Below are positions 2,005-39,510 of a DNA stretch of 64,000 bases, piece by piece (within the stretch, counting starts at the first letter, position 1; each line of letters opens with the position of its first letter). Source of the DNA: Pseudooceanicola antarcticus. GTDB taxonomy: Bacteria; Pseudomonadota; Alphaproteobacteria; Rhodobacterales; Rhodobacteraceae. A program made the translations under genes and the position numbers. The DNA lies in contig NZ_OBEA01000003.1 of assembly GCF_900215355.1 (NCBI RefSeq), positions 434,001 through 498,000 of the forward strand. Reading direction: 5' to 3'. The notes beneath the pieces were generated by a model. The model saw only the letters and a list, made by a program, of their open reading frames with translations. It searched no databases and had not been told where the DNA came from.

Positions 2005-2103
2005 GCCCGCCCTCCTGCAGCCAGAATGACACATCCCGGTGACAGGGCGACGCGGCAGGGCCGTGAAGTGACAACCTGGCTGCCAGGTGTGGCGCGCAAG
2101 TCC

Positions 2104-2303: not shown

Positions 2304-2324
2304 TCATGACCCTCCCCGAAAGCA

Positions 2325-2360
2325 AAAGGGCCGGCGCGATTTCTCGCACCGGCCCCCTTT
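2325..2360 (-). terminator. Rho-independent terminator of sulP
   Basis: Read on the minus strand, GGGCCGGTGCGA pairs with TCGCGCCGGCCC across GAAA, followed by TTTTGCTTT. It sits 18 bp past the stop of the SulP transporter gene. Confidence 0.8.
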
Positions 2361-2377
2361 GCCCATCCCGAGGCAGC

Positions 2378-15727: not shown

Positions 15728-15737
15728 CAGCGCATCC

Positions 15738-19319: not shown

Positions 19320-19365
19320 CTTGCTTGTCCTCGCGTCTAGATGCTTTACTTTTCGAACCACTTGC

Positions 19366-19393
19366 TTTTTGATTAACTCATCAATCAAGAAAA
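19366..19393. promoter_or_regulatory. Candidate BetI operator between betI and choX
   Basis: An AT-rich dyad, TTGATT (19369-19374) with AATCAA (19383-19388), extends outward to TTTT and GAAAAA. It lies in the 106-bp divergent region, 47 bp from the betI start and about 33 bp from the choX start, so one BetI-bound site could control both directions. No promoter elements are clear enough to name. Confidence 0.5.
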
Positions 19394-19425
19394 ACACAAC
19401 CCCAAGTCCAACGGAAGGAAACGAC

Positions 19426-20349: not shown

Positions 20350-20359
20350 TCCACATGGA

Positions 20360-20391
20360 AGGCCCGGTCCCCGCGACCGGGCCTTTTCTTC
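20360..20391 (+). terminator. Hairpin between choX and choW
   Basis: AAGGCCCGGT pairs with ACCGGGCCTT across CCCCGCG and is followed by TTTCTTC. It looks like a partial terminator that lowers choWV expression relative to choX. Confidence 0.75.
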
Positions 20392-20455
20392 AGGGGCCGT
20401 CCCGCAGTGGTGACGGTCCCAGCTGAATTCCCCGGAATACGAAGGGAGGTCCGCC

Positions 20456-22744: not shown

Positions 22745-25700
22745 ATGAAACGCGCGGTTCCCGATCCTGAAGGTGCGGAGTTCGCCAACGCCCTTGCCAT
22801 TGTTGGTATGGCCTGCCGCTTGCCCGGCGGTAACGAAACCCCGGATGACTACTGGCAGTTCCTTCTCGACCGTAAGACCGGAATCCGCGAAGTGCCCGAA
22901 GATCGCTGGAATGCCGAGACCTATTACAGCGAGAATTCCGACGCCATCGCCTCGGCGACGACGAAATGGGCTGGATTCCTCGATGATATTCGCGGTTTCG
23001 ACGCGAAGTTCTTTGGTATTTCCCCGCGCGAGGCCGCGGCGATGGACCCGCAACAGCGGCTGCTGCTGCAATGCACCTACGAGGCGTTGCAGGATACGCA
23101 GCGCGCGGCTTCCGACTATTCCAGGGGCAAGACCGGGGTGTTCGTCGGGATCTCCCAGTCCGACTACCGCACCATCCAGGAACTGCGCCCGACCAACCCC
23201 GAGAATTTCGCCGGCACCGGCTATGCGCTCTGCATCAGCGCCAACCGGGTGTCGCACCGGCTGAACCTGAAGGGGCCCTCCTACGCGGTGGATACCGCCT
23301 GTTCCTCGTCGCTGGTGGCGCTGAACCAGGCCGTGCAGAACCTGCATTCGGGCGCCTGTGACGTGGCCGTGGTGGCCGGCGTCAACGTGCTGGCGCACCC
23401 CTCGTCCTTCATCGCCTTCTCGCGGGCGGGGATGCTGTCTTCGACCGGGCAGATCTCGACCTTCGACAACCGCGCCAACGGCTTCGTGCGCGGCGAGGCG
23501 GCGGGCGTGGTGGTGTTGAAACCCTACCACAAGTCGCTGGAGGACGGAGACCGCATCCACGCCCTGATCCATGCCTCGGCCTGCAATCAGGACGGCTTCA
23601 CCCCGACCATCACCGCGCCCGCGCAGGACAGCCAGATCGACATGCTTGAGGATCTCTTCACGCAGTCCGGTGTCGACAAGGCCTGGGTCGGCTATGTCGA
23701 GGCCCATGGCACCGGCACCCCCGTGGGTGATCCCATCGAGGCGGGCGCCATCGGCACCGTGATCGGCCAGCACAATGCCGAACGTCCGGTCTGGATCGGC
23801 TCGGGCAAGGCCAATGTCGGTCACGCCGAGGCGGCGGCCGGGATCTCGGGCCTGATCAAGGCCGTGCTCGCCGTGCGCAACGGCGTCGTGCCGCCGAACG
23901 TCAATTTCGACACTCCGAACCCCAATATCCCCTTCGATGCGCTGAACCTGAAGGTGCCGACCGCGGCCGAGCCCTTCCCCGAGGCCGGTGGCCTGCGCTT
24001 TGCGGTGGTCAACTCATTCGGCTTCGGCGGCACCAATGCCTCGACCCTGATTTCCTCGGTGCCCGCGCAGGCCGCCGTGCCGGTGATGCCCGTTGCCCGC
24101 AGGGGCGCGCAGGACTTCCCCTATTTCTTCCCGCTCTCGGGCCCCAGCCAGGAGGCCATCCTGGCCAATGCCGGGGACCTGCTGGCGCTGCTGAAGGACG
24201 AAGACAGCGCCCTGTCGCAGCTTTCGCTGGCCGAGCTGTCGGCGGCGCTTGGCAAGGACCGCGCCCATCTCACCTACCGCACCATGCTGCTCGCCCGCAG
24301 CCGCGACGAGCTGCTGGAGGCGCTGGAGCTGCTGGTGGAGAACGACGAAGAGAAGCTGTCGGAGGCGAAGACGGTGATCACGGGCCAGGCCCGCACCGAG
24401 ACCTCGCTGTGCTTCGTCTTTGCCGGGCAGGGCAGCCAGTGGTGGGCCATGGGGCGCCAGTTCATGGAGCATTCCCCCGTCTTCCGCGATGCGGTCGAGG
24501 CCTATGATGCGCATTTCAAGACGGTTGCCGGCTGGTCCCTGGTGGATGAGCTGCTGGCGGACGAGGCCTCTTCCCGCATTGACGACACCGCGGTGACCCA
24601 GCCTGCGCTCTTTGCCATCCAGGCGGGTCTGGGTGCGGTCTGGGAGAGCTTCGGCATCAAGCCCGACATGGTGGTGGGGCACTCGATCGGCGAGTCCGCG
24701 GCCTCCTACATCGCCGGGGGCCTGACGCTGGAAGGCGCGGCCAGCTTCCTTTCGAAGCGCGGCGTGGTACGTGATCAGCTGGGCCAGAAGGGCGCCATGG
24801 CCGCCGTTGGCCTCGCGCCCGAGGATATCGAGCCGCTGTTGCCGCCGAAGATCAACGTCGCCGCCGTCAACGGGCCGGGGTCCACCACGATCTCGGGCGA
24901 CTACGACACGTTGCATGCCTTCGTGGAGGAGTTCCAGGAAAGCCAGCCCGATACCTTCATCCGCATCCTCAAGGTCGATACCGCCTGGCACTCCTACCAG
25001 TTGGAAGCCGGGGAAGAATGGTTCCGACGCGAGGTGAAAGAGGTGTCGTGGCGGGTGCCGCAGATCCCCTTCATCTCGACCGTGACCGGCAAGCCGGAAA
25101 CAAAGTTCGACCTGGAATATGCCTGGCTGAACTTGCGCCGTCCGGTGATGTTCCAGCAGGGCATCGAGACCGCGCTGAAGATGGGGGCCACCACCTTCGT
25201 CGAGCTGGGGCCGCATTCGACCCTGATGGGCCCCACGAAGTCGACAGCGCTTGAGGCCGGTGCCAAGGTCGATGTCTTCCAGTCGCTGTCTCGCAAGGAA
25301 GCCGATTTCGACATCTTCGCCCGCACCGCCGCGCAGCTCTATGTCTCGGGCTACGCGCTGGACTGGGATGCGCTGGCCGGCGGGGCAGAGGCACCGCTGG
25401 CCCTGCCGCGCAATCACTGGATGCAGGAAAGCCTCTGGCAGGACAGCGAGGAAAGCCGCGCCGCCCTCTACGGCGCCCGCCCGCATCCCTTCCTGGGCCG
25501 CAAGTCCGCCGACGCGGGCAGCGCCTGGCGGATGGAGCTGAACACCAAGGCCTGGCCCTTCCTGAAGGACCACCGGATGCAGTCCGAGACGCTGTTCCCC
25601 GGCGCAGGCTACCTGGAAACCCTGGTGGCGCTCGGGGTCGAGCTGCACGGCGACAAGCCGTTGGAGCTGTCGGACACGGTGATCCACGAGGCGCTCTTCC

Positions 25701-28700
25701 TCGAAGAGGACCAGGACATGCTGGTCTCGGTCTCCTGGTCGCCGGACCGCAAGCGCGCCAAGCTCTTCTCGCGCCCGCGTGACAGCCGCGACGACTGGGT
25801 GCTGCGCTCGGAAGGCAAGATCCGCGTCACCGATGTGCCCGCCCCCGAGGCGATGCCCTTCGATCCCGCGACCACCGAGTTGCAGGAGGTCGATGCGGCG
25901 CTGGTCTATGACGTGGATTCCAGCCAGGGCTTCGTGAACTACGGCCCCGCCTTCCAGGTGATCGACCGCATCTGGGTCGGCGAGCACAGCGCCGTGGCGC
26001 GCATCAAGGCGCCCGAGGCGATCAAGGGCCAGACCGAGACCTTCTATATCCACCCCTCGCTGATGGATGGCTGCCTGCAGATGTGCGATCCGCGCATCTC
26101 GGCGGCGACGATCCACACGCCTCGCAAGCCCGGCGACATGGCCTATCTGCCCGTCGGCGCCCGCAAGCTGCGCTACTACGGCCGTCTGCCCGACGAGGTG
26201 ATCGCCCATGCGCACCGCGCCCGGAACCCGGTGACGGGCGAGATCGAGGCGCATTTCACCGTCACCGACGTCGATGGCCGCGTGCTGTTCCAGGCCGAGG
26301 GCCTGCTGACCCAGCCGCTGCCCACCAAGGCCGCGGCAGAGGCCACTGACGAGGTGCTGCCGAACTTCACCGTCGAGGGCCTTTCCGAGATCCGCGACGA
26401 GCCCGCGCTGGTCGACGATGCGCTTGGCACCTGGCTGGTGCTGGCCGAAAGCGCCGCCGATGTGGCCCCGCTGGTCTCCGAGATGACAGCCCTTGGCGCC
26501 GCGCCCGTGGTGCTGACCCGCGACGCACTGGGCGAAGAGCTGGTGCAGGCGGTCGAGGACCAGCACGGCGAGGCGCTGGAGCAGGCGCAGGTGAAGGGTA
26601 TCTTCTTTGCAGCCGCCCTCGGTGCCGCCGGTACCCCTGCCGATGCCGAACCCGCCGATCTCTATGCGCAGATCGAGCGCAACGTGATGGACCTGATCAC
26701 CATCGGCGACCTGATGGACTTCCACCGCACCAACGAGGTGGCCCTGCCGCGCATCGCGGTGCTGACCTCTGGGGCCTATCCCGACCCGGTGACCGGCAAG
26801 GCCGGTGCTGCCGGGCTGACCCAGACGCCGATTTCGGCGCTTGGCCGGGTTCTGGCCACCGAGACGCCGGAATACCACGTGCGGATGTTCGACCACGACG
26901 GCTCGGACGCCGCGGGGCTGGCGCTGCGCCTGCTGTCGGACACCCTCGAAACCGAGACGGTGATCCGCGAGGGCAAGACCTATGGCGCCCGGCTATTCGC
27001 CCGCGAGACGTCAGAGTTCGAGCCCAAGCTGGTCGATGTGCCTGCCAGCGACGAGACGGTCAACTTCCACGCCACCATGCGCCAGCCGGGCGTCATAGAT
27101 GACCTGGGCCTCTGGGAGCTGCCGCTGGAAGCGCTGGCCGACGACGCGGTGCGGGTGCGTATCTCTGCGGTCGGCATGAACTTCCGCGATGTCATGGCCG
27201 TCACCGGCCTGCTGCCGGAAGAGGCAGAGCCCGATCCCGCCTGGCAGCACCTGGGCCTGGAGTTCGGCGCCGTGGTCCATGCGGTCGGCAAGAACGTCAC
27301 CGGCCTGAAGCCGGGAGACCGGGTCATGGGCATGGGCCGCCGCTGCCTGCAGCGCTTCATGGACGTGGACCCCCGCGCCCTGACCGTGCTGCCCGAGCAT
27401 ATCAGCCTGGAGGAAGCCGCCACGATCCCCTCGGCCTTCGCCACGGCGCATTACGCGCTGAACCGCGTCGGTCGCATGCGCAAGGGCGAGAAGGTCTTCA
27501 TCCATGTCGCCACCGGCGGCGTCGGCATGGCCGGCATCCAGCTGTGCCAGGATGTCGGGACCGAGATCTTCGCCACCGCAGGCAGCCCCGCCAAGCGCGA
27601 GCTGCTGGCCGAGCTGGGCGCCCATCACATCATGGACAGCCGCAGCCTGAAATTCGCCGATGATGTCGAGCGGATCACCGAAGGGCGCGGCGTCGACGTG
27701 CTGCTGAACTCGCTGCCCGGCGAATATATCACCAAGGGTCTGGATATCGTCGCGCCCTATGGCCGCTACCTGGAAATCGGCAAGGTCGACGTCTATGCCG
27801 ACAGTGCCATCGGCATGAAGGCCCTGCGCAAGAACGTCTCGTTCTCCTGCCTCGATCTGGCGGCCATGGGCCAGGAGCGGCCCGAGCTGCTGGCAGAGCT
27901 GATGCAGGAGGTGGTCGAGATGTTCGCCGAGCGCCGCCTCAAGCCGCTGCCGGTGACGTCCTTCCCGATCAGCCAGATCGGCGATGCGGTCCGCTACATG
28001 TCGCAGGCGCGGCACGTGGGCAAGGTCGTCGTCTCGCTGGAGGAAGCCAGCTTCAAGATCCGCCGCGACATCTCGCGCCCCGTGGCGCTGTCGGGCGATG
28101 CCTCCTACCTGATCACCGGCGGCACCAAGGGCTTTGGCCTGACCATCGCCGACTGGATGAGCCGCGCCGGCGCCGGCAAGCTGGTGCTGACCTCGCGCGG
28201 GGGCAGCTTCCTGAAGGAAGACATGGACCGCGTGAAGGCGATGCAGGCGCGTGGCACCCAGGTCGAGGCGCTGGCGCTCGATGTCACTTCCGAGACCGAG
28301 ATGGAGGCCTATGTGGCGGCCGCCACGTCCGACGCCACCCACCCGCTGCGCGGCGTGGTCCATGGCGCGGCGGTGATCAAGGATGGCTTCCTCAACCAGC
28401 TGACGCCCGAGGTGATAACCGAGGTGCTTAGGCCCAAGGTCCTGGGCGGCTGGATCCTGCACCGGGCCTTCGAGAAGGCAGGCGTCGAGCCCGACTTCCT
28501 GATCGGCTTCTCCTCCATCGCCGAGATCATCGGCTCGGGCGGGCAGGGCAACTACGTGGCGGCCAACGCCTTCCTGACCGCGCTGGCGCGCTATCGGGAT
28601 GGCCTTGGCCTGAACGGGACGGCGATCAACTGGGGTGCCATGGCTGAATCGGGCTTCGTCGCCCGTTCCGACGGCATGGCCAGCTACCTGGAATCGGTGG

Positions 28701-30352
28701 GCCTGCACGGCCTCACCGATGAAGAGACCGACATGGGCATGGAGATCGCGGTCTCCCGCGATGTGGCGGGCTTCTGCTACTCCAAGGCCGACTGGGTGCA
28801 GATCGCTCGGGCCAATGCCGCGCTTGGCGGCAGCCCCCGCATCGCGCCGCTCCTGCAGAAGGACGGCTCGGGCGGTGGCGAGGTGCGGGCGCGACTGATG
28901 GCGCTCAGCGGCGACGAGCTGCGCGCCGAGGCCATCGAGTTCCTCAAGGACGAAGTGGCCAATGTGCTGAAGATCGACAAGGCCACGATCCAGCCCGACC
29001 GCCCGATGTCCGAGCTGGGCCTCGACTCGCTCTCGTCCTTCGAGCTGAAGATGCGCGTCGAGACGGCGCTTGATTTCACCATGCCGGTGTCGCGCTTCCT
29101 GGCCGCGCCCTCGATCGACGAATTCGCCAAGATCCTCGAAGAGGAGATCGCCGCGATGGTCGAGGCCGAGGCCAATGCCGCGAGCGCCGAAGAGGCGGGC
29201 GGCGAGGGCGAGGCCGAGGGGGCGGACGTGGCCCTTGGCTTCCAGGGGACGGATCACCAGGTGGACCTGCTGCGCAGCTCTCTGGCGCCGATGAGCTCGA
29301 CCTCCGGCAAGCTGTCGCTCTTCCATCACCGCACCGCCGGCATCTCGACCGACCGGGCGGCGGCAGAGGCGGCCATGGCGGTGCTCGCAGAGCGCCACCC
29401 GTTGCTGCGCCTGCGCGCAGAAGGGGCGGGCGAGGCGCTGGTGCTGCAACTCGACGGCGCGCCGCAGGTGCTGGAGGCGCTGCCCGAGGTGCCCGAGGTG
29501 CCCGATGTGGCCGCGGGCCAGCTGGTCGTGCTGGCGGTCGGCGCGGGCAAGGTCAGCCTGATGCTGCACCTGGCCGTGGGCGACGCGGCTTCTGCGGACC
29601 TGCTGCTGGCCGAGCTCTCCGCGCTGCTGCGGGGCGAAGAGCTGGCCATCCCCGCCGCACGTGACGAGATCGACGCGGCCCTGGCGGCCTGCCGCTACGA
29701 CGAAGAGAGCGCCGAGGGCAAGAACGACCGCGCCTTCTGGTGGTACGCCGTGAAGGCGGGCGCCGCCCCGGTGCCCTTCGCGCGCCGGGCTCGGGCGCTC
29801 TTGCCCCAGGGCATGGGCCGCGAGCGGGGCCGTACGCAGGTGTTGTCGCTGCCGCTGGACGGGGCGGATCTGTCGGAAGACCGCATCCTGCTGCGTTTCG
29901 CGCGCGGTCTGCGCGCCGCGACGGGCTCGTCCGGCAATGTGCTGGTCACCCGGATCGCGTCGGCACGGGAAGGGCTGGAGGGGACCCCGGCCATCGGGCC
30001 CTTCGAGCAGGCCCAGCCGGTGCTGGTGGAATGTGATCTGCCCGAGGCCCTGGCCGAGGCGCGCCTGAGGCGCGTGCTGGCCGCCGCCGCGGCGCATCGC
30101 CACTTCGGCAGCGCCGCCGCGGCGAAGGCCTTTGCCAAGAGCTTCCGCGACTGGAAGGTGCATCCCTTCCAGCTGGCGGTGACCACGGGCGAGGCGGCCT
30201 CGCGCGCGGTGCACGCAAGCCATGACCTGGTGCTGGAGATCGACGCCGAGGCAGGCGAGCTGCGGCTCGTGCGCGACCTCGACGTGGTGACCGAGGGCGA
30301 GGCCCGCGCGATCCTCGCGGCCTTCGAGACGGCGCTGGTGCCCGCCCAGTAG
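22745..30352 (+). CDS. Fully reducing type I polyketide synthase, KS-AT-DH-psiKR-ER-KR-ACP-C*
   Basis: 2535 residues, one complete module. KS is intact (Cys186 in DTACSSS, His321 in EAHGTGT, His360 in NVGHAEA). AT has Ser647 in GHSIGE and His749 in TAWHSY. DH has His943 in HRMQSETLFP (the usual Gly is Ser) and Asp1108 in LMDGCLQ. A structural KR half lies at about 1210-1440, ER at about 1445-1760 (ATGGVGMAG near 1591), KR at about 1785-2000 (TGGTKGFG, Ser1924, Tyr1937) and ACP with Ser2095 in LGLDSLSS. The last 370 residues look like a condensation domain whose HHxxxDG has become HLAVGDA (2275-2281). There is no thioesterase. One fully reducing module suggests iterative synthesis of a saturated, fatty-acid-like chain, as in Mas/Pks2 of mycobacteria. 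It heads an acyltransferase, sulfotransferase and export gene row. Confidence 0.93.
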   Translation: MKRAVPDPEGAEFANALAIVGMACRLPGGNETPDDYWQFLLDRKTGIREVPEDRWNAETYYSENSDAIASATTKWAGFLDDIRGFDAKFFGISPREAAAMDPQQRLLLQCTYEALQDTQRAASDYSRGKTGVFVGISQSDYRTIQELRPTNPENFAGTGYALCISANRVSHRLNLKGPSYAVDTACSSSLVALNQAVQNLHSGACDVAVVAGVNVLAHPSSFIAFSRAGMLSSTGQISTFDNRANGFVRGEAAGVVVLKPYHKSLEDGDRIHALIHASACNQDGFTPTITAPAQDSQIDMLEDLFTQSGVDKAWVGYVEAHGTGTPVGDPIEAGAIGTVIGQHNAERPVWIGSGKANVGHAEAAAGISGLIKAVLAVRNGVVPPNVNFDTPNPNIPFDALNLKVPTAAEPFPEAGGLRFAVVNSFGFGGTNASTLISSVPAQAAVPVMPVARRGAQDFPYFFPLSGPSQEAILANAGDLLALLKDEDSALSQLSLAELSAALGKDRAHLTYRTMLLARSRDELLEALELLVENDEEKLSEAKTVITGQARTETSLCFVFAGQGSQWWAMGRQFMEHSPVFRDAVEAYDAHFKTVAGWSLVDELLADEASSRIDDTAVTQPALFAIQAGLGAVWESFGIKPDMVVGHSIGESAASYIAGGLTLEGAASFLSKRGVVRDQLGQKGAMAAVGLAPEDIEPLLPPKINVAAVNGPGSTTISGDYDTLHAFVEEFQESQPDTFIRILKVDTAWHSYQLEAGEEWFRREVKEVSWRVPQIPFISTVTGKPETKFDLEYAWLNLRRPVMFQQGIETALKMGATTFVELGPHSTLMGPTKSTALEAGAKVDVFQSLSRKEADFDIFARTAAQLYVSGYALDWDALAGGAEAPLALPRNHWMQESLWQDSEESRAALYGARPHPFLGRKSADAGSAWRMELNTKAWPFLKDHRMQSETLFPGAGYLETLVALGVELHGDKPLELSDTVIHEALFLEEDQDMLVSVSWSPDRKRAKLFSRPRDSRDDWVLRSEGKIRVTDVPAPEAMPFDPATTELQEVDAALVYDVDSSQGFVNYGPAFQVIDRIWVGEHSAVARIKAPEAIKGQTETFYIHPSLMDGCLQMCDPRISAATIHTPRKPGDMAYLPVGARKLRYYGRLPDEVIAHAHRARNPVTGEIEAHFTVTDVDGRVLFQAEGLLTQPLPTKAAAEATDEVLPNFTVEGLSEIRDEPALVDDALGTWLVLAESAADVAPLVSEMTALGAAPVVLTRDALGEELVQAVEDQHGEALEQAQVKGIFFAAALGAAGTPADAEPADLYAQIERNVMDLITIGDLMDFHRTNEVALPRIAVLTSGAYPDPVTGKAGAAGLTQTPISALGRVLATETPEYHVRMFDHDGSDAAGLALRLLSDTLETETVIREGKTYGARLFARETSEFEPKLVDVPASDETVNFHATMRQPGVIDDLGLWELPLEALADDAVRVRISAVGMNFRDVMAVTGLLPEEAEPDPAWQHLGLEFGAVVHAVGKNVTGLKPGDRVMGMGRRCLQRFMDVDPRALTVLPEHISLEEAATIPSAFATAHYALNRVGRMRKGEKVFIHVATGGVGMAGIQLCQDVGTEIFATAGSPAKRELLAELGAHHIMDSRSLKFADDVERITEGRGVDVLLNSLPGEYITKGLDIVAPYGRYLEIGKVDVYADSAIGMKALRKNVSFSCLDLAAMGQERPELLAELMQEVVEMFAERRLKPLPVTSFPISQIGDAVRYMSQARHVGKVVVSLEEASFKIRRDISRPVALSGDASYLITGGTKGFGLTIADWMSRAGAGKLVLTSRGGSFLKEDMDRVKAMQARGTQVEALALDVTSETEMEAYVAAATSDATHPLRGVVHGAAVIKDGFLNQLTPEVITEVLRPKVLGGWILHRAFEKAGVEPDFLIGFSSIAEIIGSGGQGNYVAANAFLTALARYRDGLGLNGTAINWGAMAESGFVARSDGMASYLESVGLHGLTDEETDMGMEIAVSRDVAGFCYSKADWVQIARANAALGGSPRIAPLLQKDGSGGGEVRARLMALSGDELRAEAIEFLKDEVANVLKIDKATIQPDRPMSELGLDSLSSFELKMRVETALDFTMPVSRFLAAPSIDEFAKILEEEIAAMVEAEANAASAEEAGGEGEAEGADVALGFQGTDHQVDLLRSSLAPMSSTSGKLSLFHHRTAGISTDRAAAEAAMAVLAERHPLLRLRAEGAGEALVLQLDGAPQVLEALPEVPEVPDVAAGQLVVLAVGAGKVSLMLHLAVGDAASADLLLAELSALLRGEELAIPAARDEIDAALAACRYDEESAEGKNDRAFWWYAVKAGAAPVPFARRARALLPQGMGRERGRTQVLSLPLDGADLSEDRILLRFARGLRAATGSSGNVLVTRIASAREGLEGTPAIGPFEQAQPVLVECDLPEALAEARLRRVLAAAAAHRHFGSAAAAKAFAKSFRDWKVHPFQLAVTTGEAASRAVHASHDLVLEIDAEAGELRLVRDLDVVTEGEARAILAAFETALVPAQ

Positions 30353-30371
30353 GCTTTGCACGATGACGCTT

Positions 30372-30395
30372 TCCCGCCCGAGACGTCGGGCGGGA
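30372..30395 (+). promoter_or_regulatory. Perfect hairpin between the PKS and the acyltransferase gene
   Basis: TCCCGCCCGA pairs with TCGGGCGGGA across GACG, with no T-run. It sits in the 93-bp gap after the PKS stop and probably stabilises the 3' end of the PKS message or attenuates read-through, not a full terminator. Confidence 0.55.
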
Positions 30396-30445
30396 GGCAG
30401 GTTTGCCGGGGGCGTGGTCGCCCGGAGACAGGAAGACAAGTGACC

Positions 30446-31804
30446 ATGGACACTCTGACCCGCGCCGAGGCGCAACCTCTTGGCCTCTGGCAGCGCTACC
30501 AGATCCGACAATTGACCGACCCGGCCTGCACACCGACCGGAGCGTCCATCTGGCTATTGTCCTTCGCCATGCTGATCCGGCCCAAGGCTGACCGCAGGCG
30601 GCTTGGACGTGCCTTCCAGAAGCTGGTGCGCCGTCACGACGGGCTGCGGCTGCGCTTCGAGCAGGATGACAGCGGTTGGCACGGGGTGATGAACCCGGTC
30701 AGCGCCTATGGGCTGACCGAGGTCGAACTGGGCGAAGTGGATGACGAGACCTTCCGCGGCAAGCTCAACGAGGTTGCGCGAAAGCCCATGGATATCCGCT
30801 CGGAAAAGCTGGTCGAGCTGGTGCTGCTGAACTGCGGCAGCCGGGGCGACGCGGTGGTCTGGCGCATCCACCATGCGCTGACCGACGGTTTCGGGATGAT
30901 CGTGCTGGCCGAGGATCTGTTCAAGTACATGCTGGGTCTGCCCATCCTCAGCTCGGCGCTGTCGCACCGGGACTACATCCGGCAATGGCAGAGCCCGAAG
31001 GGCGCCCGCGCCGCCGAGGTCGAGGCCTATTGGGCCCGCGTTGCCGCCGATGCGCCGCCCGCCCCCGACGTGGGACGAAGGGCCCGTGGGCTAGAGCCGC
31101 TGCACCTGTCCAACGCTGTCCGCGAGAGCAGGGGCCTGAACGTGCGGATCTCGGCGCAAAGCGCCGAGGCGTTGCGTGCCCGCAGCGCCGAGACGGGGCT
31201 TTCGCTGCAGCATCTGTTCTTCGGTGGCTTCCTCGAGGCTGTCTGCCGCATCCATGGGCTTGACCGGATGATCTTCGACTTCTCGGCCATGCGCACCGAG
31301 CCGGCCCTGTCGAACTATTGCGGCGATCACACGCTTGATCCCTTCATCATCTACCGCCCCGACCATGGCTCCGACCCTTGGGACCGCGCCGCCCGGCTGC
31401 AACGCCAGTACTTGGAGGCCATGGCCCATCTGCCCGCCGATGCGGCCCGGCGCGGCAGCCGGCTTGAGCAGAAGATGATCGAGGCCGGTGTCTATCCGCG
31501 CCAGTTCGCCACCTATGTCCCGAGGGCCACCAGGCGGGAGGAGGGCTCGACCTTCAGGAACGCCTTCGCGGCGCGCGCGGGAGAGACCGTCAGCTTTGGG
31601 GCGCATAGCTTCACGCCGCTGGAGCTGGACCAGAATGTGCACAGTCTTAACGAGTTGCAGGTGATTGCCATGGATGATGTCGGCACGGCTGCTTTCGGTC
31701 TCGGCTGGGATGCCGATGCCTATGACACCGAAGACATAGAGACGCTGGCGGCCCGGATCTGCCAGATCCTGGACATCGACCTGATTGAACTGGTGCCAAG
31801 ATGA
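30446..31804 (+). CDS. Free-standing condensation-domain/PapA-like acyltransferase
   Basis: 452 residues from the ATG at 30446; an in-frame GTG at 30440 and TTG at 30356 are alternatives. The C-domain fold is indicated by AFQKLVRRHDGLRLRFEQ near the N terminus and the active site IHHALTDGFGM (His142, His143, Asp147), complete unlike that in the PKS. Later SNYCGDHTLDPFIIY matches the second half of the fold. WS/DGAT and PapA enzymes share this motif and transfer an acyl chain from ACP or CoA to an alcohol or amine. Next to a thioesterase-less PKS it probably releases the chain as an ester or amide. Its stop overlaps the sulfotransferase start (ATGA). Confidence 0.8.
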   Translation: MDTLTRAEAQPLGLWQRYQIRQLTDPACTPTGASIWLLSFAMLIRPKADRRRLGRAFQKLVRRHDGLRLRFEQDDSGWHGVMNPVSAYGLTEVELGEVDDETFRGKLNEVARKPMDIRSEKLVELVLLNCGSRGDAVVWRIHHALTDGFGMIVLAEDLFKYMLGLPILSSALSHRDYIRQWQSPKGARAAEVEAYWARVAADAPPAPDVGRRARGLEPLHLSNAVRESRGLNVRISAQSAEALRARSAETGLSLQHLFFGGFLEAVCRIHGLDRMIFDFSAMRTEPALSNYCGDHTLDPFIIYRPDHGSDPWDRAARLQRQYLEAMAHLPADAARRGSRLEQKMIEAGVYPRQFATYVPRATRREEGSTFRNAFAARAGETVSFGAHSFTPLELDQNVHSLNELQVIAMDDVGTAAFGLGWDADAYDTEDIETLAARICQILDIDLIELVPR

Positions 31805-32979
31805 CGCCTGCGAATTCCTCTGCCCGCCGCCGCGACGGCGACCTGGTGCAGGCCAATCCCCGAGACTACGGCTATTCGCCCAACATGCCACGCCTCTGGC
31901 ACGGGATGACCTTCCAGGCCTGGCGCGGGATGTCGCGCGGCCAATGGGTGAACCGGGACCTGATCCGTCCGGGGCTCTTTGCCTCGGTCACGGCCCTGAG
32001 CCTGGGCAATACGCTGATGGCGGCGCTCAGCGATCTGCTGTTCGGCCGGGCGCTGGAAAAGGTGAAGATCGAGCCCGATCCGGTCTTCGTGCTGGGTTTC
32101 TGGCGCTCGGGCACCACCTGGCTGCACCAGCTGCTGTCCAATGACCCGCGCTTCACCGCGCCGACCTCGCTGCAGGTCTTCATGCCCGAGACCTTCCTGG
32201 TGCTGAGCCGCGTGATGCGCCCACTGGAGAGGCTCTGGCTGCCGAAGAGCCGGCCCATGGATGCGGTGGCGCTGAAGGCCGATACCTCGGAGGAAGACGA
32301 GGTGGCGCTGGCGGTCTCCGGGGCGGCCTCGATCATGCGGGCGCTGTCCTATGGCAATCTGAACGATCCGCGGGTGACCTGGGATATCGACAGCCTGCCC
32401 GAGGCGGACCTTGACCATTGGCGCCGCACCTGGATGCGCTTCCTGACCAAGGTGCAGTACCGCGCCCCGTCCAAGCAACTGCTGCTGAAATCGCCCGGCC
32501 ACACGATGCGCATCCGAGAGGTGCTGCGTCAGTTCCCCAATGCCCGCTTCATCCATATCATCCGCGATCCCTACGCGGTGGCGGCCTCCTATCTGTTTTC
32601 CTCCGAGGCGATGACCGCGACGCAGACCGTGCTCAAGGTCATGCCCACCGAGGCAGAGCAACTGGATGGCGCGCTCAGGGTGCTGCCCGAGTTTCACCGG
32701 GCCTTCGAGGCGCAGAAGCACCTGATCCCCGAAGGCCGCTACACCCAGATCCGCTACGAGGCCCTGAGCAAAGACCCCAAGGCGGTGCTGTGCGGCGCCT
32801 ACGAGGACCTGGGTCTGGACAGCTTCGGCGATCTCGAGCCGGGGCTGGATCGCATGATCGAGGCGCGCCGGGGCTACAAGGCCGGCAGACCTGCGCTGGA
32901 CCCGGTTCTGGCCCGGCGCATCGAGACGGATTGGTACGAGTATTTCGAGCGTTACGGCTACCCGATACGAACAGAATAG
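31801..32979 (+). CDS. PAPS-dependent sulfotransferase family protein
   Basis: 392 residues. The phosphosulfate loop is GFWRSGTTWLHQLLSNDP at about 99-116, and the 3'-phosphate site is FIHIIRDPYAVAASYLFSS at about 249-267, matching the Sulfotransfer_3 group. The C terminus YEYFERYGYPI is usual there. It should move sulfate from PAPS to a hydroxyl or amino group of a small molecule or lipid. It is translationally coupled to the acyltransferase before it and followed by an exporter 9 bp on, so its substrate is probably the PKS product or the acceptor. A kinase for PAPS is not in the window. Confidence 0.85.
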   Translation: MTPANSSARRRDGDLVQANPRDYGYSPNMPRLWHGMTFQAWRGMSRGQWVNRDLIRPGLFASVTALSLGNTLMAALSDLLFGRALEKVKIEPDPVFVLGFWRSGTTWLHQLLSNDPRFTAPTSLQVFMPETFLVLSRVMRPLERLWLPKSRPMDAVALKADTSEEDEVALAVSGAASIMRALSYGNLNDPRVTWDIDSLPEADLDHWRRTWMRFLTKVQYRAPSKQLLLKSPGHTMRIREVLRQFPNARFIHIIRDPYAVAASYLFSSEAMTATQTVLKVMPTEAEQLDGALRVLPEFHRAFEAQKHLIPEGRYTQIRYEALSKDPKAVLCGAYEDLGLDSFGDLEPGLDRMIEARRGYKAGRPALDPVLARRIETDWYEYFERYGYPIRTE

Positions 32980-32988
32980 AAGATCTTG

Positions 32989-35274
32989 ATGACCATTTCC
33001 GACCGCATCGCGGCCCTCTTGTTGCGCCACCTTCGCAAGCTCTCTGCGCTTGTGCTGCTGATCGTTCTTGGCCTCGGGGCGGGGATTCCGGCGCTGACCT
33101 TCTCGGCCGACAACACCAGTTTCTTCGGCAAGCAGAACCAGGAAACCCGCGACCTGGAAGACCTTGGTGAATTCTACACCGGCTCCAGCGGCTTCCTGAT
33201 CATGGTCAAGCCGCCCGAGGGCGAGATGTTCTCTCTGAACACCCTCGAAGCCCTGAAGGAAATGACGGCGGATGTCTGGCAGGCCCCCTTCGCCCTGCGC
33301 GTGGATTCCCCGGCCAACTTCAACCACAGCCGTTCCGAGGGGGAGGACATCATCGTCGAGCCGTTGCTGGACGAATATGCCGAGGTCACCCCCGAGGTGG
33401 CGGAGCGTTTCCAGGAGGTCGTCTCGACCAGCCCCGAGATGCGCAACCGGCTGGTGGCGGCGGATCTGCAGGCCTATGGCATCTCGCTGAACACCGTGCT
33501 GTCGGATGACTTCGAGGCGCGCCGGGACGAGCTGCTGGCCTTCCTCGACCAGATGGAGGCCGATTGGGCCGAACGCTACCCCGGTTTCGAGATCCGCATG
33601 ACCGGCGATGTGCTGGGCGGGCTGACCCTGGCCCTGGCCGCGAAGCAGGACATCCTGACCCTTGTGCCCATGGCCTTCGTGCTGGTGATCGCGCTGCTGC
33701 TCTTCTTCCTGCGGGTGCCGCTGGCGGTGGGTGGTGCGGCGCTGGTGGTCCTGCTCAGCACCATCGGCACCTTCGGGTTCACCGGCTTCCTGGGGATCGA
33801 GCTGACGGCAGGCACGGCGATCAGTCCGATGGCGGTCATGGTGCTGACCGCGGCCTCCTGCATCCACCTGATCCTCAGCTGGTTCCGCGAGCTCGACCGG
33901 TCGGACCGTGCCACCGCCCTGCATCACGCGATATCCGAGAACCTGGCCCCGGTGCTGGTGACCACCGTCACCACCGCGATCGGCTTCCTGGCGCTGAACT
34001 TCGCCGAGGCGCCGCCGCTGCAGGACATGGGCAATATCGTCGCCTTCGGGCTGATGATCGGCATGATCGCGAATTTCACCCTGCTGCCGCTGGCCCTGCG
34101 CGCCAGCCGCGCCCGTGGCGGCGACCGGCTGCCCCTGCGCGAGGGGATGATGCGGGTGCTGGCCGACCTCGCCGTGCGCTACCGTCGCGGCTGGATCACC
34201 GGCTTCCTGGCGCTGATCCTGGTGGCGGGTCTCGGCATCGGGCGTATCGGCTATGATGACAGCCTGGTGCGCTATTTCGATGACCGCTTCGAGTTCCGCC
34301 AGGACTCCGACGAGATCCAGCAGCATCTCACCGGGCTCGACAACCTTCAGTTCTCGTTCACCGCGCCCGAGGGCGGCTCTGTCTTCGATCCCGACTTCCT
34401 ACGCGATATCGACCGTTTCACCACCTGGATCGAGACCCAGGACAACGTCGTCGGGGTCTCGAGCCTGACCCAGGTGATCAAGCGGCTCAACATGTCGATG
34501 AACGGCGACGCGCCGGCCTTCGACCGTATCGCGGACAGCCGCGAGGCCAATGCCCAGCTGATGATGTTCTACGAGCTCTCGCTGCCGGTCGGGCTGGACC
34601 TCAACTCGACCATCGACGTGGATCGGCAGCGCACCCGCGTGGTCGTGCTGATGCGTGCCGAACACAGCGAGGACGTGCGCGGGCTGGCCAAGGTGGCCGA
34701 GGCCTGGATGGCCCGGAACACGCCCGACACCCAGGCCCGCGCGGCGGGGATTTCCTACGCCTTCTCCACGGTCTCCGAGCGCAACAACTCGCAGATGCTG
34801 GTCGGGCTGGTTCTGGTCCTGGTGCTGGTTTCGCTGATCATGATGGCCACCCTGCGCAACGCGCGGATGGGGGTGATCAGCCTGGCGCCGAACGTCCTGC
34901 CGGCCATCTTCGCCTTCGGTCTCTGGGGGATCAGCTTCGGCGATGTGAACCTGGGATCAACCGTGGTCACGACCATGACATTCGGGATCGTGGTGGATGA
35001 CACGGTTCACTTCCTCATGCACTATCTGGACGGACGGAAGAGGGGCCGTTCCACAGTAGATGCCTTGCAGGAGACGTTCCGGGTCGTAGGGTCCGCCATT
35101 ATCGTGACCTCGATCTGTCTCGCCATCGGATTTCTCGTCATGGCGACCTCCGGCTTTGCAATCAACCAGCACCTCGGTGCGCTGACTGCCATCGTGATCG
35201 GCTTCGCCCTGCTGGCGGATCTGCTGTTTCTCCCCGCACTGCTCCTCAGCTTTGACAGGACGAAAGCAAAATGA
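32989..35274 (+). CDS. MMPL/RND-family lipid exporter
   Basis: 761 residues from the ATG at 32989 (a TTG lies one codon upstream). It has the RND repeat: a membrane helix at about 15-40, a periplasmic domain, five helices at about 220-375, then helix seven at about 400-425, a second periplasmic domain and five helices at about 610-755. Proton-relay Asp pair VVDDTVHFLMHY is in the second half; the first-half counterpart reads AASCIHLILSWF without acidic residues. The family moves hydrophobic molecules such as hopanoids or mycobacterial lipids to the periplasm or outer membrane. It overlaps the LolA-like gene by ATGA and is the obvious exporter for the PKS/sulfotransferase product. Confidence 0.88.
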   Translation: MTISDRIAALLLRHLRKLSALVLLIVLGLGAGIPALTFSADNTSFFGKQNQETRDLEDLGEFYTGSSGFLIMVKPPEGEMFSLNTLEALKEMTADVWQAPFALRVDSPANFNHSRSEGEDIIVEPLLDEYAEVTPEVAERFQEVVSTSPEMRNRLVAADLQAYGISLNTVLSDDFEARRDELLAFLDQMEADWAERYPGFEIRMTGDVLGGLTLALAAKQDILTLVPMAFVLVIALLLFFLRVPLAVGGAALVVLLSTIGTFGFTGFLGIELTAGTAISPMAVMVLTAASCIHLILSWFRELDRSDRATALHHAISENLAPVLVTTVTTAIGFLALNFAEAPPLQDMGNIVAFGLMIGMIANFTLLPLALRASRARGGDRLPLREGMMRVLADLAVRYRRGWITGFLALILVAGLGIGRIGYDDSLVRYFDDRFEFRQDSDEIQQHLTGLDNLQFSFTAPEGGSVFDPDFLRDIDRFTTWIETQDNVVGVSSLTQVIKRLNMSMNGDAPAFDRIADSREANAQLMMFYELSLPVGLDLNSTIDVDRQRTRVVVLMRAEHSEDVRGLAKVAEAWMARNTPDTQARAAGISYAFSTVSERNNSQMLVGLVLVLVLVSLIMMATLRNARMGVISLAPNVLPAIFAFGLWGISFGDVNLGSTVVTTMTFGIVVDDTVHFLMHYLDGRKRGRSTVDALQETFRVVGSAIIVTSICLAIGFLVMATSGFAINQHLGALTAIVIGFALLADLLFLPALLLSFDRTKAK

Positions 35275-36068
35275 CCAAGACCATGTTTACCGCGATTGCC
35301 GCGATTGTCGCGGCTCTCTTCATCGGGCTGGGCCCGGCCAGCGCAGAGACCACCCAGGAGAAGGGGCTGCGCATTGCCCAAAGCGTGGGCCAGGAGCCCG
35401 GTTTCCGCGATCAGGCGGCCGAGGGCGAGATGATCCTGACCACCAAGTCCGGCCAGACCAGTATCCGCCGCTTCGAGGCCCGCGCGGTCGAGACCTCTCC
35501 GGGCGAGACGCGCTCGGTGCTGACCTTCCTCTGGCCCGGCGATATCCGCAATACGACCCTGCTGACCCATTCCCATGCCGGCGGGCGCGACGACGACCAG
35601 TGGCTCTACCTGCCGGCCGTCTCGAAGGTGCGGCGGATCTCGTCTTCGGGTCGCTCGGGCTCTTTCGTGGGCAGCGAATTCGCCTATGAGGACATGAGCG
35701 ACCAGGACGTGGACAAGTACACCTACAACTGGGTTGCGGATGGCAGCTGTCCGGGTGGCGGTCGCTGCCATATCGTCGACCGTTTCCCCAGGGGCGCCTC
35801 GGCCTACAGCTACGAGCGCGTCTGGATCGAGCAATCGCGCAAGCTGATCCAGAAGGTCGAATACTACGATCGCCGCAAGGCGCATCTGAAGACCATGCTC
35901 ATTTCAGGCTACCGCAAGCACAACGGCAAGTATTGGCGTGCCGCGAAGATGGAAATGAGCAATCACCTCACTGGCAAGGGCACCACCCTGACCTGGGACG
36001 GCTTTACCTTCGACAGGGGGGTCAACCCCAACGACCTGACGGTCAGCGCCCTTCGCAAGGGCCTTTGA
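35271..36068 (+). CDS. Outer membrane lipoprotein-sorting (LolA-like) periplasmic protein
   Basis: 265 residues. A signal peptide (MTKTMFTAIAAIVAALFIGL, then GPASA) precedes ETTQEKGLRIAQSV. The body fits the LolA-like group with an open beta-barrel that carries lipids, seen in MILTTKSGQTSIRRFEARAV, DQWLYLPAVSKVRRISSS, SFVGSEFAYEDMS and KMEMSNHLTGKGTTLTWDGF. Members usually sit beside RND/MMPL exporters and are thought to ferry their lipid cargo across the periplasm. Here the start overlaps the exporter stop. A hairpin without T-run lies past the stop at 36088-36113. Confidence 0.85.
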   Translation: MTKTMFTAIAAIVAALFIGLGPASAETTQEKGLRIAQSVGQEPGFRDQAAEGEMILTTKSGQTSIRRFEARAVETSPGETRSVLTFLWPGDIRNTTLLTHSHAGGRDDDQWLYLPAVSKVRRISSSGRSGSFVGSEFAYEDMSDQDVDKYTYNWVADGSCPGGGRCHIVDRFPRGASAYSYERVWIEQSRKLIQKVEYYDRRKAHLKTMLISGYRKHNGKYWRAAKMEMSNHLTGKGTTLTWDGFTFDRGVNPNDLTVSALRKGL

Positions 36069-36320
36069 ACAAGCAGGCAAAGGGCGAATCGCTCTCCCTC
36101 GGGGGAGGGCGATCTGACCTGAAAACAGGCAATGTGGATCAGGCTGTCCGACAGAAACCCTGAATAAGAGGTAAACGGGGCCATTCACACAACCATAGCG
36201 TGGCTTTTGTGTCCTTGCCGCATCGGCCGCTCTGCGCAATTCGGGCAACATACGTTTTCGGATATTTGGTGTGGCGCCCGGTGATACTTCTCTAGCCAAT
36301 CAGCAATTGGAGTAATTTGA

Positions 36321-37730
36321 ATGTCGTATTTCTCGGGGGGGAAAACCGCAGCGATTTCCGCGGGGGCGATTTTTGCGGCACTGGTCGGACAGGCGCAGGC
36401 GCAAGAGGCGGATGTGAATGCGAGCGTTTCCTTCGGGGTTCGCTATTACACCGAAGACGGCCTCTATCCGGAGCAATCCGATGCCGGAGCCGAGGGCGCG
36501 TTTGAATTCAACATCAACGGCGCCAAGCCTATCGGTCCGGGTCAGCTGAACTTCGACATCGACGGCCTTGCCGATATTACGGGCACGCGCAACGTCCTGA
36601 ACCCGGCAGAGCTGAATTACACCCAGAGCTTCGGCAACTGGAGCGTTCTGGCAGGCTTCCACACCGAGAACTGGGGCGTGGCCGAAAGCCGCTCGGTGAT
36701 GAACGTCATGAACCCGACCAACAATGCTGATCCGATGATCGAGGATGTGCTGCTTGGCACGCCCATGGTCAACCTGAACTACACCAGCTCCATCGGTACC
36801 TTCAGCGCCTATGCGCTGACCGGCTTTATCGAGCCGATCTATGCCGAGGGCGACGACGCGCGGTTCCGTTCGCCGCTGGAATGGGATTCCAGCCGAGCCG
36901 AGTTCGAGGCCAGCAAGCGGGATCGCAACCTGGACCTGGCGCTGCGCTACGCTGGCTATTTCTCGGTCGGGGCGGGCTCGCTGGACATCCAGGCGACCTA
37001 CTTCAACGGCACCAGCCGCGAAGCGGTCGGCCTGCCGGGCTGCGTGGGCTCCTTCGGCACCGTGACCGAGGCGATCTGTAACCAGGCCAACGTGCTGATC
37101 CAGCAGGCCTATGAAGCCGGTCTCGACCTCGATCTGGACGGCCTGGATTTCGATGTCTCCAACATCGAGGACATCCTTGACCAGATCGACCCCGACCTGG
37201 CCGACGACCTTGTGGCGCTGCTCTCGACCGAGCCGGTGCTGGGCGCCGTGCCCTACTACCAGAAGGTCGAGCAGATCGGCCTGTCGACCGTCTATGCCCT
37301 CAACGACCTGCAGCTGCGCTTCGAGGCCTCGGTGCATGAGACCTCTACCGGCGGCTACTTCTCGGGCATGGTCGGCGGCGACTATACCTTCAACGGCTTC
37401 TTCGCCGGCAAGGGTGATCTGACCGTGGCGGCGGAATACCTCTACGACGACCGCTCGCCGGTGCAGCCGCTGACGATCTTCGAGAACGATGTCTTCCTGG
37501 GCTTCAACTACAAGTTCAACAACGCCAATGCCACCGAGCTGAAGATGGGTGTCTTCCACGATATCGACAGCAAGGCGCGGCTCTACACCATGGGCGTCAG
37601 CTCTCGTCTGACCGATGAAACCAGCATCGAGTTCAATGCCACCCACGTGGACACGCAGGGCTACAACGATCCGCTGGCCTTCATCGGCAATGACAGCTTC
37701 ATGGAGCTGAAGTTCACCAGCTACTTCTGA
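36321..37730 (+). CDS. Outer-membrane beta-barrel protein linked to the exporter
   Basis: 469 residues from the ATG at 36321 (GGAG eight bases upstream). A signal peptide ends at AQAQ before EADVNASVSFGVRY. The rest is a run of alternating, aromatic-girdled strands, and the last residue is Phe in KFTSYF, the C-terminal signal for barrel assembly. ENWGVAESRSVMNVMNPTNN recalls barrel proteins partnered with RND and LolA-like proteins (DUF1302-type), but I cannot assign the family firmly. A 252-bp gap separates it from the LolA-like gene, so it may have its own promoter. A terminator follows. Confidence 0.7.
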   Translation: MSYFSGGKTAAISAGAIFAALVGQAQAQEADVNASVSFGVRYYTEDGLYPEQSDAGAEGAFEFNINGAKPIGPGQLNFDIDGLADITGTRNVLNPAELNYTQSFGNWSVLAGFHTENWGVAESRSVMNVMNPTNNADPMIEDVLLGTPMVNLNYTSSIGTFSAYALTGFIEPIYAEGDDARFRSPLEWDSSRAEFEASKRDRNLDLALRYAGYFSVGAGSLDIQATYFNGTSREAVGLPGCVGSFGTVTEAICNQANVLIQQAYEAGLDLDLDGLDFDVSNIEDILDQIDPDLADDLVALLSTEPVLGAVPYYQKVEQIGLSTVYALNDLQLRFEASVHETSTGGYFSGMVGGDYTFNGFFAGKGDLTVAAEYLYDDRSPVQPLTIFENDVFLGFNYKFNNANATELKMGVFHDIDSKARLYTMGVSSRLTDETSIEFNATHVDTQGYNDPLAFIGNDSFMELKFTSYF

Positions 37731-37860: not shown

Positions 37861-37890
37861 TTGACGTCCCTCGCGGGCGCAGGGGATAAG

Positions 37891-38643
37891 ATGGACGGGG
37901 AAGACGCCGCGATGGCCGGGGGCACTTCGGGACAGGCTGAACAGGCGATCCGCCTGCGCGATCTGCAATTCTCTTGGTCCGGTCGCACCAGCTTCCGCAT
38001 GGAGGTGCCCGACCTGCGGGTCGCCCGCGGCGAGAAGGTCTTTCTGCTGGGCGAGAGTGGCAGCGGCAAGTCGACGCTGCTCAGCCTGATCTGCGGCATC
38101 AATGCCCCGCAACGCGGCACGGTCGAGGTCGATGGCACCGCGCTCGGCTCTCTTTCGGCGGCGGCCCGCGATCGCTTCCGCGCCGAGCGGATCGGCGTGA
38201 TCTTCCAGATGTTCAACCTGCTGCCCTATGCCTCGCCGCTTGAGAATATCCTGTTGCCCCTGAGCTTTGCCAAGGCGCGCCGGGCCAGGGTCGCCGACCC
38301 GCGGGCCGAGGCGCTGCGGCTGACCGCGGGGCTCGGGCTTGAGGCAGACCTGGTCTGCGGCGCCCGTGCCTCCGAGTTGAGCATCGGCCAGCAGCAGCGC
38401 GTTGCTGCCGCCCGCGCCCTGATCGGAGGTCCGGCGCTGATCGTTGCAGATGAGCCGACCTCGGCGCTGGATGCCGCCCGGCAGGGCGATTTCCTGGACC
38501 TGCTGATGCAGCAGACCGAGGCCGAGGGCGCCACACTGCTTATGGTCAGCCATGACGCAAGACTGGCCGAGCGCTTCGACCGGGTGATGGACCTGTCGCA
38601 GGTCGTGCTCACCTCCCGCGAGGGGCCTGGGGCCGGCGGCTGA
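37891..38643 (+). CDS. ABC transporter ATP-binding protein (MacB/LolD type, Zrg-like zinc system)
   Basis: 250 residues from the ATG at 37891 (AGGGG upstream); a TTG at 37861 is the longer alternative. Walker A LLGESGSGKST, Q-loop VIFQMFNLLPYASPLEN, signature ASELSIGQQQRVAAARAL and Walker B ALIVADEPTSALD are complete. It belongs to the LolD/MacB group that pairs with FtsX-type permeases, and the permease gene (39511) lies two genes on. Between them is a His-rich DUF2796 protein. The set resembles the Vibrio Zrg zinc-uptake system, so this ATPase probably powers metal uptake or release from the binding protein. Confidence 0.88.
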   Translation: MDGEDAAMAGGTSGQAEQAIRLRDLQFSWSGRTSFRMEVPDLRVARGEKVFLLGESGSGKSTLLSLICGINAPQRGTVEVDGTALGSLSAAARDRFRAERIGVIFQMFNLLPYASPLENILLPLSFAKARRARVADPRAEALRLTAGLGLEADLVCGARASELSIGQQQRVAAARALIGGPALIVADEPTSALDAARQGDFLDLLMQQTEAEGATLLMVSHDARLAERFDRVMDLSQVVLTSREGPGAGG

Positions 38644-38665
38644 CGACTCCGCAGGCGTCACTGAT

Positions 38666-38688
38666 GAAATGTTATACTGTATTCCAAA
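38666..38688 (+). promoter_or_regulatory. Zur-like site before the DUF2796 gene
   Basis: GAAATGTTATA (38666-38676) is identical to the left half of the classic gammaproteobacterial Zur box and close to the alphaproteobacterial one; the right half TGTATTCC is weaker. It sits 26 bp before the start of the His-rich protein, arguing for zinc control of a second promoter. Confidence 0.5.
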
Positions 38689-38713
38689 TCGCAATCCTGG
38701 AGAGGACAGCAAG

Positions 38714-39466: not shown

Positions 39467-39510
39467 TATGCTCATGGCGCCGCCCCAGGCGGCGCCGACA
39501 GGAGACTGAC

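Follow-up and report, generated by a model that had tools for sequence, protein, structure and literature searches.

The window considered here is a stretch of 64,000 nucleotides from Pseudooceanicola antarcticus (contig NZ_OBEA01000003.1, positions 434,001 to 498,000) that contains a putative operon of six genes. In the order of their position on the forward (+) strand, these genes encode a highly reducing type I polyketide synthase (PKS), a stand-alone condensation-domain acyltransferase, a sulfotransferase, an MMPL-type transporter of the resistance-nodulation-cell division (RND) superfamily, a LolA-like periplasmic protein, and a porin-like outer-membrane beta-barrel. All six open reading frames (ORFs) were confirmed on this single strand, with codon composition and GC content at third codon positions (GC3) of the coding type, and a Pfam search places five of the six proteins, the barrel being the exception. 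This order and direction had been recognized in an initial annotation of the stretch and stand unchanged. The same annotation counted four tight or overlapping junctions. As listed, the acyltransferase ORF opens at TTG 30356, but homologs open near ATG 30446 in the alignment, and for this reason ATG 30446 is preferred as the probable true start. With this start, the junctions from the PKS to the barrel gene measure 93, -4, 9, -4, and 252 bp, so that three rather than four of them are tight. The 4-bp overlaps are located between the acyltransferase and sulfotransferase genes and between the MMPL and LolA genes, and the former recurs in four of the six clusters inspected.

Domain composition of the six proteins

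The PKS (22745..30352, +, 2535 aa) shows the Pfam domain order KS-AT-DH-ER-KR-ACP with the motifs TACSSS in the KS (at 184), GHSIG in the AT (at 645), and LGLDSL in the ACP domain (at 2091). The specificity motif of the AT domain reads DTAWHSYQ, which to our knowledge is neither of the textbook forms. Relatives of nearly full length with 48-88% identity are encoded in five of ten other genomes compared (G239, G296, G299, G301, and G302). The ACP is followed by ~385 residues (29180..30352, +), overlooked in the initial annotation, which represent a condensation-like domain. This tail aligns to the stand-alone acyltransferase (hhalign, 97.4% probability over 360 columns). Its AlphaFold model has a mean pLDDT of 64.7, and the 50 Foldseek matches listed are all condensation, epimerization, or related domains of nonribosomal peptide synthetases (NRPS) and PKS (probability 1.00, TM ~0.3). 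The HHxxxDG motif is decayed in the alignment, and the PKS is accordingly predicted to end in a degenerate, inactive condensation-like domain.

The adjacent acyltransferase (30446..31804, +) belongs to the Condensation family PF00668 (86 bits; cut-off 30.6) and carries the motif HHALTDG. The HHxxxD motif is present in all 11 acyltransferase sequences inspected, including this one, the last residue being G or A. Both the condensation fold above the Pfam cut-off and HHxxxDG, as expected for a chain-releasing condensation domain, are thus found in this protein. Its profile matches 49 PDB entries, all condensation-type chains of NRPS or PKS and none named PapA; among them is 6cgo (E 3.1e-16). Among its five model matches, the only one of PapA type is PRK09294, a phthiocerol dimycocerosyl transferase, with 15.4 bits against a cut-off of 539, and the matches listed include no PapA1 or PapA2 model. 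The protein is therefore classified by sequence as a stand-alone condensation domain that is no near relative of PapA, and its earlier designation as PapA-like is not retained.

The sulfotransferase (31801..32979, +) is of the 3'-phosphoadenosine-5'-phosphosulfate (PAPS) type and falls into the Sulfotransfer_3 family PF13469 (113 bits; cut-off 27), with the motif RSGTTWLH. An APS kinase gene for PAPS supply is present in the P. antarcticus genome. Stf0, with which the initial annotation had drawn a parallel, forms a Pfam family of its own, and its structure has been solved. The parallel finds no support in the matches: those in Pfam are limited to Sulfotransfer_3, _1, and _4, and none of the eight PDB matches of the sulfotransferase profile bears the name Stf0. 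The first two of these eight are named only as uncharacterized proteins, followed by 4gox (polyketide synthase) and 4gbm (CurM sulfotransferase). A scan of viral contigs returned three stretches that fit the patterns and no relatives, and a plasmid search at E 1e-30 returned 15 records, all below 34% identity and none in Rhodobacterales. A second, solitary sulfotransferase with 44% identity to that of the window is encoded in the metagenome-assembled genome (MAG) SP126 (locus L016, 10001-11119), which also holds a full cluster (L017); the L016 neighborhood contains the sulfotransferase only. In Melioribacteraceae (L057, 3-10975) and Bacteroidota (L083, 2-9196), a sulfotransferase of the same family immediately follows an NRPS-like frame with multiple condensation domains.

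The last three genes encode the parts of a putative exporter. The MMPL/HAE3-like RND inner-membrane transporter (32989..35274, +; ORF listed from TTG 32986) reaches 96 bits with PF03176 (cut-off 20.5). The LolA_like protein of carrier fold (35271..36068, +) reaches 175.5 bits with PF17131 (cut-off 30), matches PDB entries 3bk5, 9tp6, and 4z48 by sequence, and has a Sec-type signal by inspection. It is the only gene called between the MMPL and barrel genes, and a fourth periplasmic gene of the AmeC type (see below) is not found there. For the last protein (36321..37730, +), which has no Pfam match, the AlphaFold model (nine rows) consists mainly of beta strands with a mean pLDDT of 50.9. The majority of the 50 PDB entries listed by Foldseek are named as outer-membrane porins (TM ~0.24-0.52). 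A signal peptide is visible by inspection, and the C-terminal Phe is invariant in nine of nine alignment rows. Judged from this predicted fold, the protein is probably a porin-like outer-membrane beta-barrel. The three export parts named in the initial annotation are thus upheld.

Conservation and natural variants of the gene set

In a search of 295 genomes of the same family (E <=1e-60), the sulfotransferase was found in four, P. antarcticus included, and all four carry the six genes. A wider search covered a collection in which 84,980 species are represented by a single genome each, and from which the best 80 of 348 sulfotransferase relatives were kept; the profiles used for their neighboring genes were partly built from the very loci searched. 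Homologs of LolA and the barrel lie near the sulfotransferase in the same eight of these 80 loci (L009-L015, L017), the titles of which name Rhodobacteraceae or Oceanicola, Pseudooceanicola, and Aestuariivita. The complete gene set is present in six of the eight (L009, L010, L013, L014, L015, and L017), and the exact gene order is found in L010, L013, L015, and L017, as well as in G239 (L007) and G839 (L183). In L009 (Oceanicola sp. S124, G295:C237), the PKS ends at the contig edge and the acyltransferase (2036-3299) is spread over three frames, which may be a draft error or decay. In L014 (Aestuariivita boseongensis), the acyltransferase is inverted and placed after the barrel, and the PKS is split over two contigs. 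The six-gene set is thus present in nine genomes, namely that of the window and eight others, of which six are ordered, one is cut by the contig end (L009), and one has the acyltransferase moved (L014). Identities to the window proteins range from 26% (acyltransferase, L007) to 91% (PKS part, L009). Among the remaining 72 loci, 14 have mostly partial or weak PKS, MMPL, or condensation matches, including two NRPS-like genes beside the sulfotransferase. The acyltransferase profile has relatives in at least 2 of 385 genomes of the class (the own genome and G392) and at least 2 of 398 of the phylum (the own genome and G839), both counts being lower bounds as at most four candidates were scored per genome in the rows listed.

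Since homologs of all six genes co-locate in eight other genomes, the genes are clustered more than by chance. The initial annotation had made its proposal dependent on conservation beyond this genome, which is given, and its notion of one unit that combines an assembly line, acyl transfer, a sulfotransferase, and export parts from the inner to the outer membrane agrees with this joint conservation. All six genes are under purifying selection, with dN/dS values (simple Nei-Gojobori) between the window and L010 of 0.18 for the PKS, 0.35 for the acyltransferase, 0.28 for the sulfotransferase, 0.18 for MMPL, 0.20 for LolA, and 0.26 for the barrel. Gene trees (FastTree support values) were built without G839. 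The sulfotransferase, MMPL, LolA, and barrel trees share one common topology among the cluster genomes included and, Pseudooceanicola marinus aside, the six trees agree except for one swap (see below). A comparison with the cluster-free genome G192 of the same genus as a possible empty site left the downstream flanking gene unmatched at E 1e-30. A six-gene operon of this kind was not found described in the literature searched, the coverage of which was incomplete.

Several natural variants separate the parts of this gene set. In two genomes of P. marinus, the genes for the sulfotransferase, MMPL, LolA, and the barrel directly follow choV, and those for the PKS and acyltransferase are missing. 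There is no acyltransferase match at E 1e-8 in these genomes, and the only PKS matches beyond single-domain size belong to a different PKS with 33-36% identity. P. marinus is nested in the six-gene clade in four trees (support 0.83-1.00), and the loss of the PKS and acyltransferase genes is therefore derived. When remnants of these genes were sought at the junction, only the upstream choV-PKS end and the sulfotransferase start were similar, the rest being short and at chance level. The remaining four genes are kept with low dN/dS between the two genomes (sulfotransferase 0.16, MMPL 0.075, LolA 0.066, barrel 0.066), which indicates that sulfotransferase and exporter are useful without this PKS.

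In the alphaproteobacterium G392, which is placed outside the family, PKS, tail, and acyltransferase are fused into one protein of 3,113 aa. PKS and acyltransferase would therefore act together, and the fusion speaks for the use by the acyltransferase of the ACP-bound chain of its own PKS. No sulfotransferase is encoded within the 20 kb read around the fusion; a related one (E 4.4e-60) is located on this contig at a distance of ~50 kb (L185, 10016-14657; G392:C16), close to an ORF of 884 aa that matches MMPL weakly.

A further variant, a sister cluster, is found on plasmid pDSM109990_a of Sulfitobacter dubius (NZ_CP085145.1, 122000-172611; L181/L186). This cluster encodes a PKS that has the tail as well, a pair of condensation acyltransferases, MMPL, LolA, and a barrel homolog (350 bits), together with galE and a 1021-aa Mur-ligase-type protein, of which the C-terminal part is MurF-like and the first ~600 residues have no Pfam match. 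Unlike in the window, no sulfotransferase was found, neither in the stretches read nor in the plasmid search at E 1e-30. The plasmid NZ_CP085168.1 of a second Sulfitobacter strain has the same arrangement as far as MMPL, and NZ_CP085169.1 is represented by search matches only. On the Sulfitobacter plasmids, the PKS directly adjoins MMPL and LolA, an arrangement that links the exporter with the PKS.

LolA relatives occur in 47 of 289 genomes of the class (own included). When 20 of 60 LolA places outside the own genome were surveyed, chosen from those with better scores and all in Alphaproteobacteria, MMPL was found in 15, a barrel in 13, and all three genes in 11. None of the 20 loci has a sulfotransferase or acyltransferase, and the single PKS match (28 bits) is a 240-aa reductase-like ORF. 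The upstream genes encode TetR regulators in three of three cases tested. Because MMPL-LolA-barrel sets stand elsewhere without sulfotransferase and acyltransferase, they appear to form a general export module that has been joined to a PKS pathway in the window.

A possible route of lipid synthesis and export

We favor, with slightly better than even confidence, an operon that makes an amphiphilic lipid and places it in the outer membrane or further out. From the predicted functions we infer the following route. The iterative, fully reducing PKS would build an acyl chain on its own ACP that is long and for the most part saturated. The condensation-type acyltransferase would free this chain by transferring it to an acceptor, either an alcohol or an amine, with the inactive PKS tail perhaps serving as its docking partner. 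The sulfotransferase would transfer a PAPS-derived sulfate and create a charged head. Next, the HAE3/MMPL-like RND pump would extract the product from the inner membrane, the LolA-like protein would ferry it through the periplasm, and the porin-like barrel would receive it at the outer membrane. The acceptor or core is a more likely site of sulfation than the polyketide chain, since the sulfotransferase outlives the PKS in P. marinus (dN/dS 0.16) and since Sulfitobacter has another likely head-modifying enzyme, of the Mur type, instead of a sulfotransferase.

Several steps of this route have parallels in known systems. The enacyloxin PKS is a modular PKS for an antibiotic. According to its title, PDB entry 6cgo concerns chain release from this PKS mediated by a condensation domain, which is what is proposed here, whereas the PKS of the window has a single reducing module, followed by an inactive condensation-like tail. 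For the exporter, AmeABCD of Castellaniella defragrans has been described as an HAE3-affiliated RND pump encoded jointly with a LolA-superfamily periplasmic protein and an outer-membrane protein (PMC6394551), a combination that the exporter set of the window resembles. The families differ, however, with DUF1329 for AmeB and DUF1302 for AmeA as opposed to PF17131 and a barrel without Pfam match, and AmeC has no counterpart in the window. Furthermore, Ame is presented in that source as a system of monoterpene tolerance and not as part of a biosynthetic operon, whereas the exporter of the window sits in one. In Thalassolituus oleivorans, the same set of MMPL, LolA-like, and porin parts is represented by TOL_3187, in which MMPL and LolA-like domains are united in one protein instead of separate genes, and by an adjacent predicted porin. 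TOL_3187 is raised on C28 alkane, and its authors suggest the placement of a porin that admits alkanes (PMC6304351).

A functional analogy exists with sulfolipid-1 of Mycobacterium tuberculosis (Pks2, PapA1/PapA2, Stf0, MmpL8, and FadD23), the pathway of which likewise combines a PKS of the reducing type with an acyltransferase, a sulfotransferase, and an MMPL-type pump. In sulfolipid-1 assembly, Stf0 is described as sulfating trehalose prior to acylation, and core sulfation, if it also takes place here, would match this order (PMC9989471). Kinship with the sulfolipid-1 parts is not supported. Among NCBIfam models, the PKS matches the Pks2 model NF041183 best, but with 1159.5 bits it stays below the cut-off of 2400. 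MMPL reaches only 98 of 874.7 bits with TIGR00833 (MMPL-family RND), and acyltransferase and sulfotransferase match neither PapA nor Stf0. The operon lacks FadD23, Sap/Chp1, and a trehalose gene, and no FadD or trehalose gene is present in the six genes or the ten flanking ORFs to which the search was confined. Conversely, the PKS tail, the LolA-like carrier, and the outer-membrane barrel are additional parts of the window, in which all genes form one contiguous operon. By sequence, the operon would thus work like sulfolipid-1 assembly without belonging to it, and it is very improbable, despite the equivalent part types, that a close Gram-negative version of sulfolipid-1 with acylated trehalose sulfate as product is encoded here.

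A different placement of the sulfate would make the product a true sulfated polyketide: the sulfotransferase could act on a hydroxyl group of the PKS chain in the manner of CurM before the chain is moved by the acyltransferase. The PDB matches 4gox and 4gbm at ranks 3 and 4 and the 4-bp overlap of the sulfotransferase start with the acyltransferase stop in four of six clusters are consistent with this. However, free chain hydroxyls are not assured in the presence of ER and KR domains. CurM-type decarboxylation needs a thioesterase, which the operon does not encode. P. marinus, moreover, retains sulfotransferase and exporter without PKS and acyltransferase, and the substrate of the sulfotransferase therefore need not be a polyketide. 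Sulfation of the chain is distinctly unlikely, and the term sulfated polyketide used initially is too strong.

The six genes could also represent two units that are adjacent by accident, with PKS and acyltransferase on one side and sulfotransferase, RND pump, LolA, and barrel acting on another envelope lipid on the other. P. marinus holds the second unit only, the 20 kb read around the PKS-acyltransferase fusion of G392 contain no sulfotransferase, and 11 of the 20 alphaproteobacterial LolA loci have the exporter without the other three genes. The acyltransferase is relocated in Aestuariivita, and the PKS and acyltransferase trees branch differently from the other four. This possibility is unlikely, although credible, as the six genes stand together in nine genomes, the split in P. 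marinus is a later loss within the six-gene clade, and the PKS of the Sulfitobacter plasmids lies directly beside MMPL and LolA where no sulfotransferase was found.

A number of observations nevertheless weigh against a single lipid pathway. The PKS and acyltransferase trees agree mutually but swap Aestuariivita and MAG Bpl_10, with support values of 0.95 and 1.00 as opposed to 0.65, 0.99, 0.73, and 0.80 in the other four, so that the two halves of the gene set may have partly separate histories. This conflict and P. marinus fit two separable units as well, and sulfotransferase and exporter may also serve another substrate. In view of the 252-bp gap ahead of the barrel gene and of a promoter scan that gave one site compared to 1.8 in shuffles, co-transcription is no more than putative. 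According to Pfam, none of the six genes encodes an acceptor-making enzyme, a FAAL/FadD loader, or a thioesterase. The APS kinase gene is non-discriminating, being present in 11 of 12 genomes, including the cluster-free G192, and not found in P. marinus G298. The best NCBIfam model of MMPL by E-value, HAE3 TIGR00921, is matched with 144.5 bits and thus below its cut-off of 351.9. Finally, model confidence is low for the barrel (pLDDT ~51) and middling for the PKS tail.

On a broader scale, the variants suggest, tentatively and at somewhat less than even confidence, that marine Roseobacter-type bacteria make a class of polyketide lipids of the outer membrane that has not been described before. 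In these bacteria, the PKS with its tail and the condensation acyltransferase would make and release the lipid tail, an interchangeable sulfotransferase or Mur-type ligase would set the head group, and transport to the surface would follow a dedicated RND/LolA/barrel route. If true, these bacteria would display a polyketide lipid not described so far on their surface, by a Gram-negative counterpart of mycobacterial MmpL lipid export that is extended by steps in the periplasm and at the outer membrane. The genes for synthesis, for head-group chemistry, and for each of the three steps of export would lie side by side in a compact genetic system, and lipid hand-over from MMPL/HAE3 pumps to the outer membrane would become testable in a non-pathogen. 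The natural deletion in P. marinus and the swap in Sulfitobacter already separate steps of the pathway.

Flanking genes and second PKS loci

The operon is bordered upstream (14066-22347) by genes for a choline sulfatase, an aldehyde dehydrogenase, a GMC oxidoreductase, and an ABC transporter of the choline/betaine type. A link of the operon to choline sulfate metabolism through these sulfatase, oxidation, and uptake genes could be considered, as choV is also located upstream of the cluster in L010 and the entire choline set in L011 and L012. In the stretches around five other clusters (L007/L008, L013, L015, L017, and L183/L184), of which that of L015 covers just ~0.9 kb upstream, there are no choX, choW, or betC homologs and only generic ABC ATPase matches (28-35%). 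The choline set thus accompanies the nearest relatives only; a general link was rejected and is scarcely credible. After the barrel (37861-40764) follow genes for an ABC ATPase, a 267-aa ORF on the opposite strand without Pfam match, and a MacB/FtsX permease; they are also present in L009 and were not seen after the barrel in L010, L011, and L012.

A second PKS as supplier in every cluster genome was rejected, since frames of ~2,500-2,600 aa occur only in G000, G296, G297, and G298, and the second-PKS matches in the other cluster genomes are fragments or frames of different length. One such second reducing PKS (~2510 aa; L109, G000:C12:377000-396999) adjoins an enzyme of the class I/II aminotransferase fold that is possibly oxoamine synthase-like. 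The locus also holds a UDP-galactopyranose mutase, a glycosyltransferase (GT) with a galactofuranosyltransferase-type N-terminus, and further GT2 enzymes, and is perhaps a locus for a glycosylated amino-lipid. The ORF order of L110 in P. marinus looks similar.

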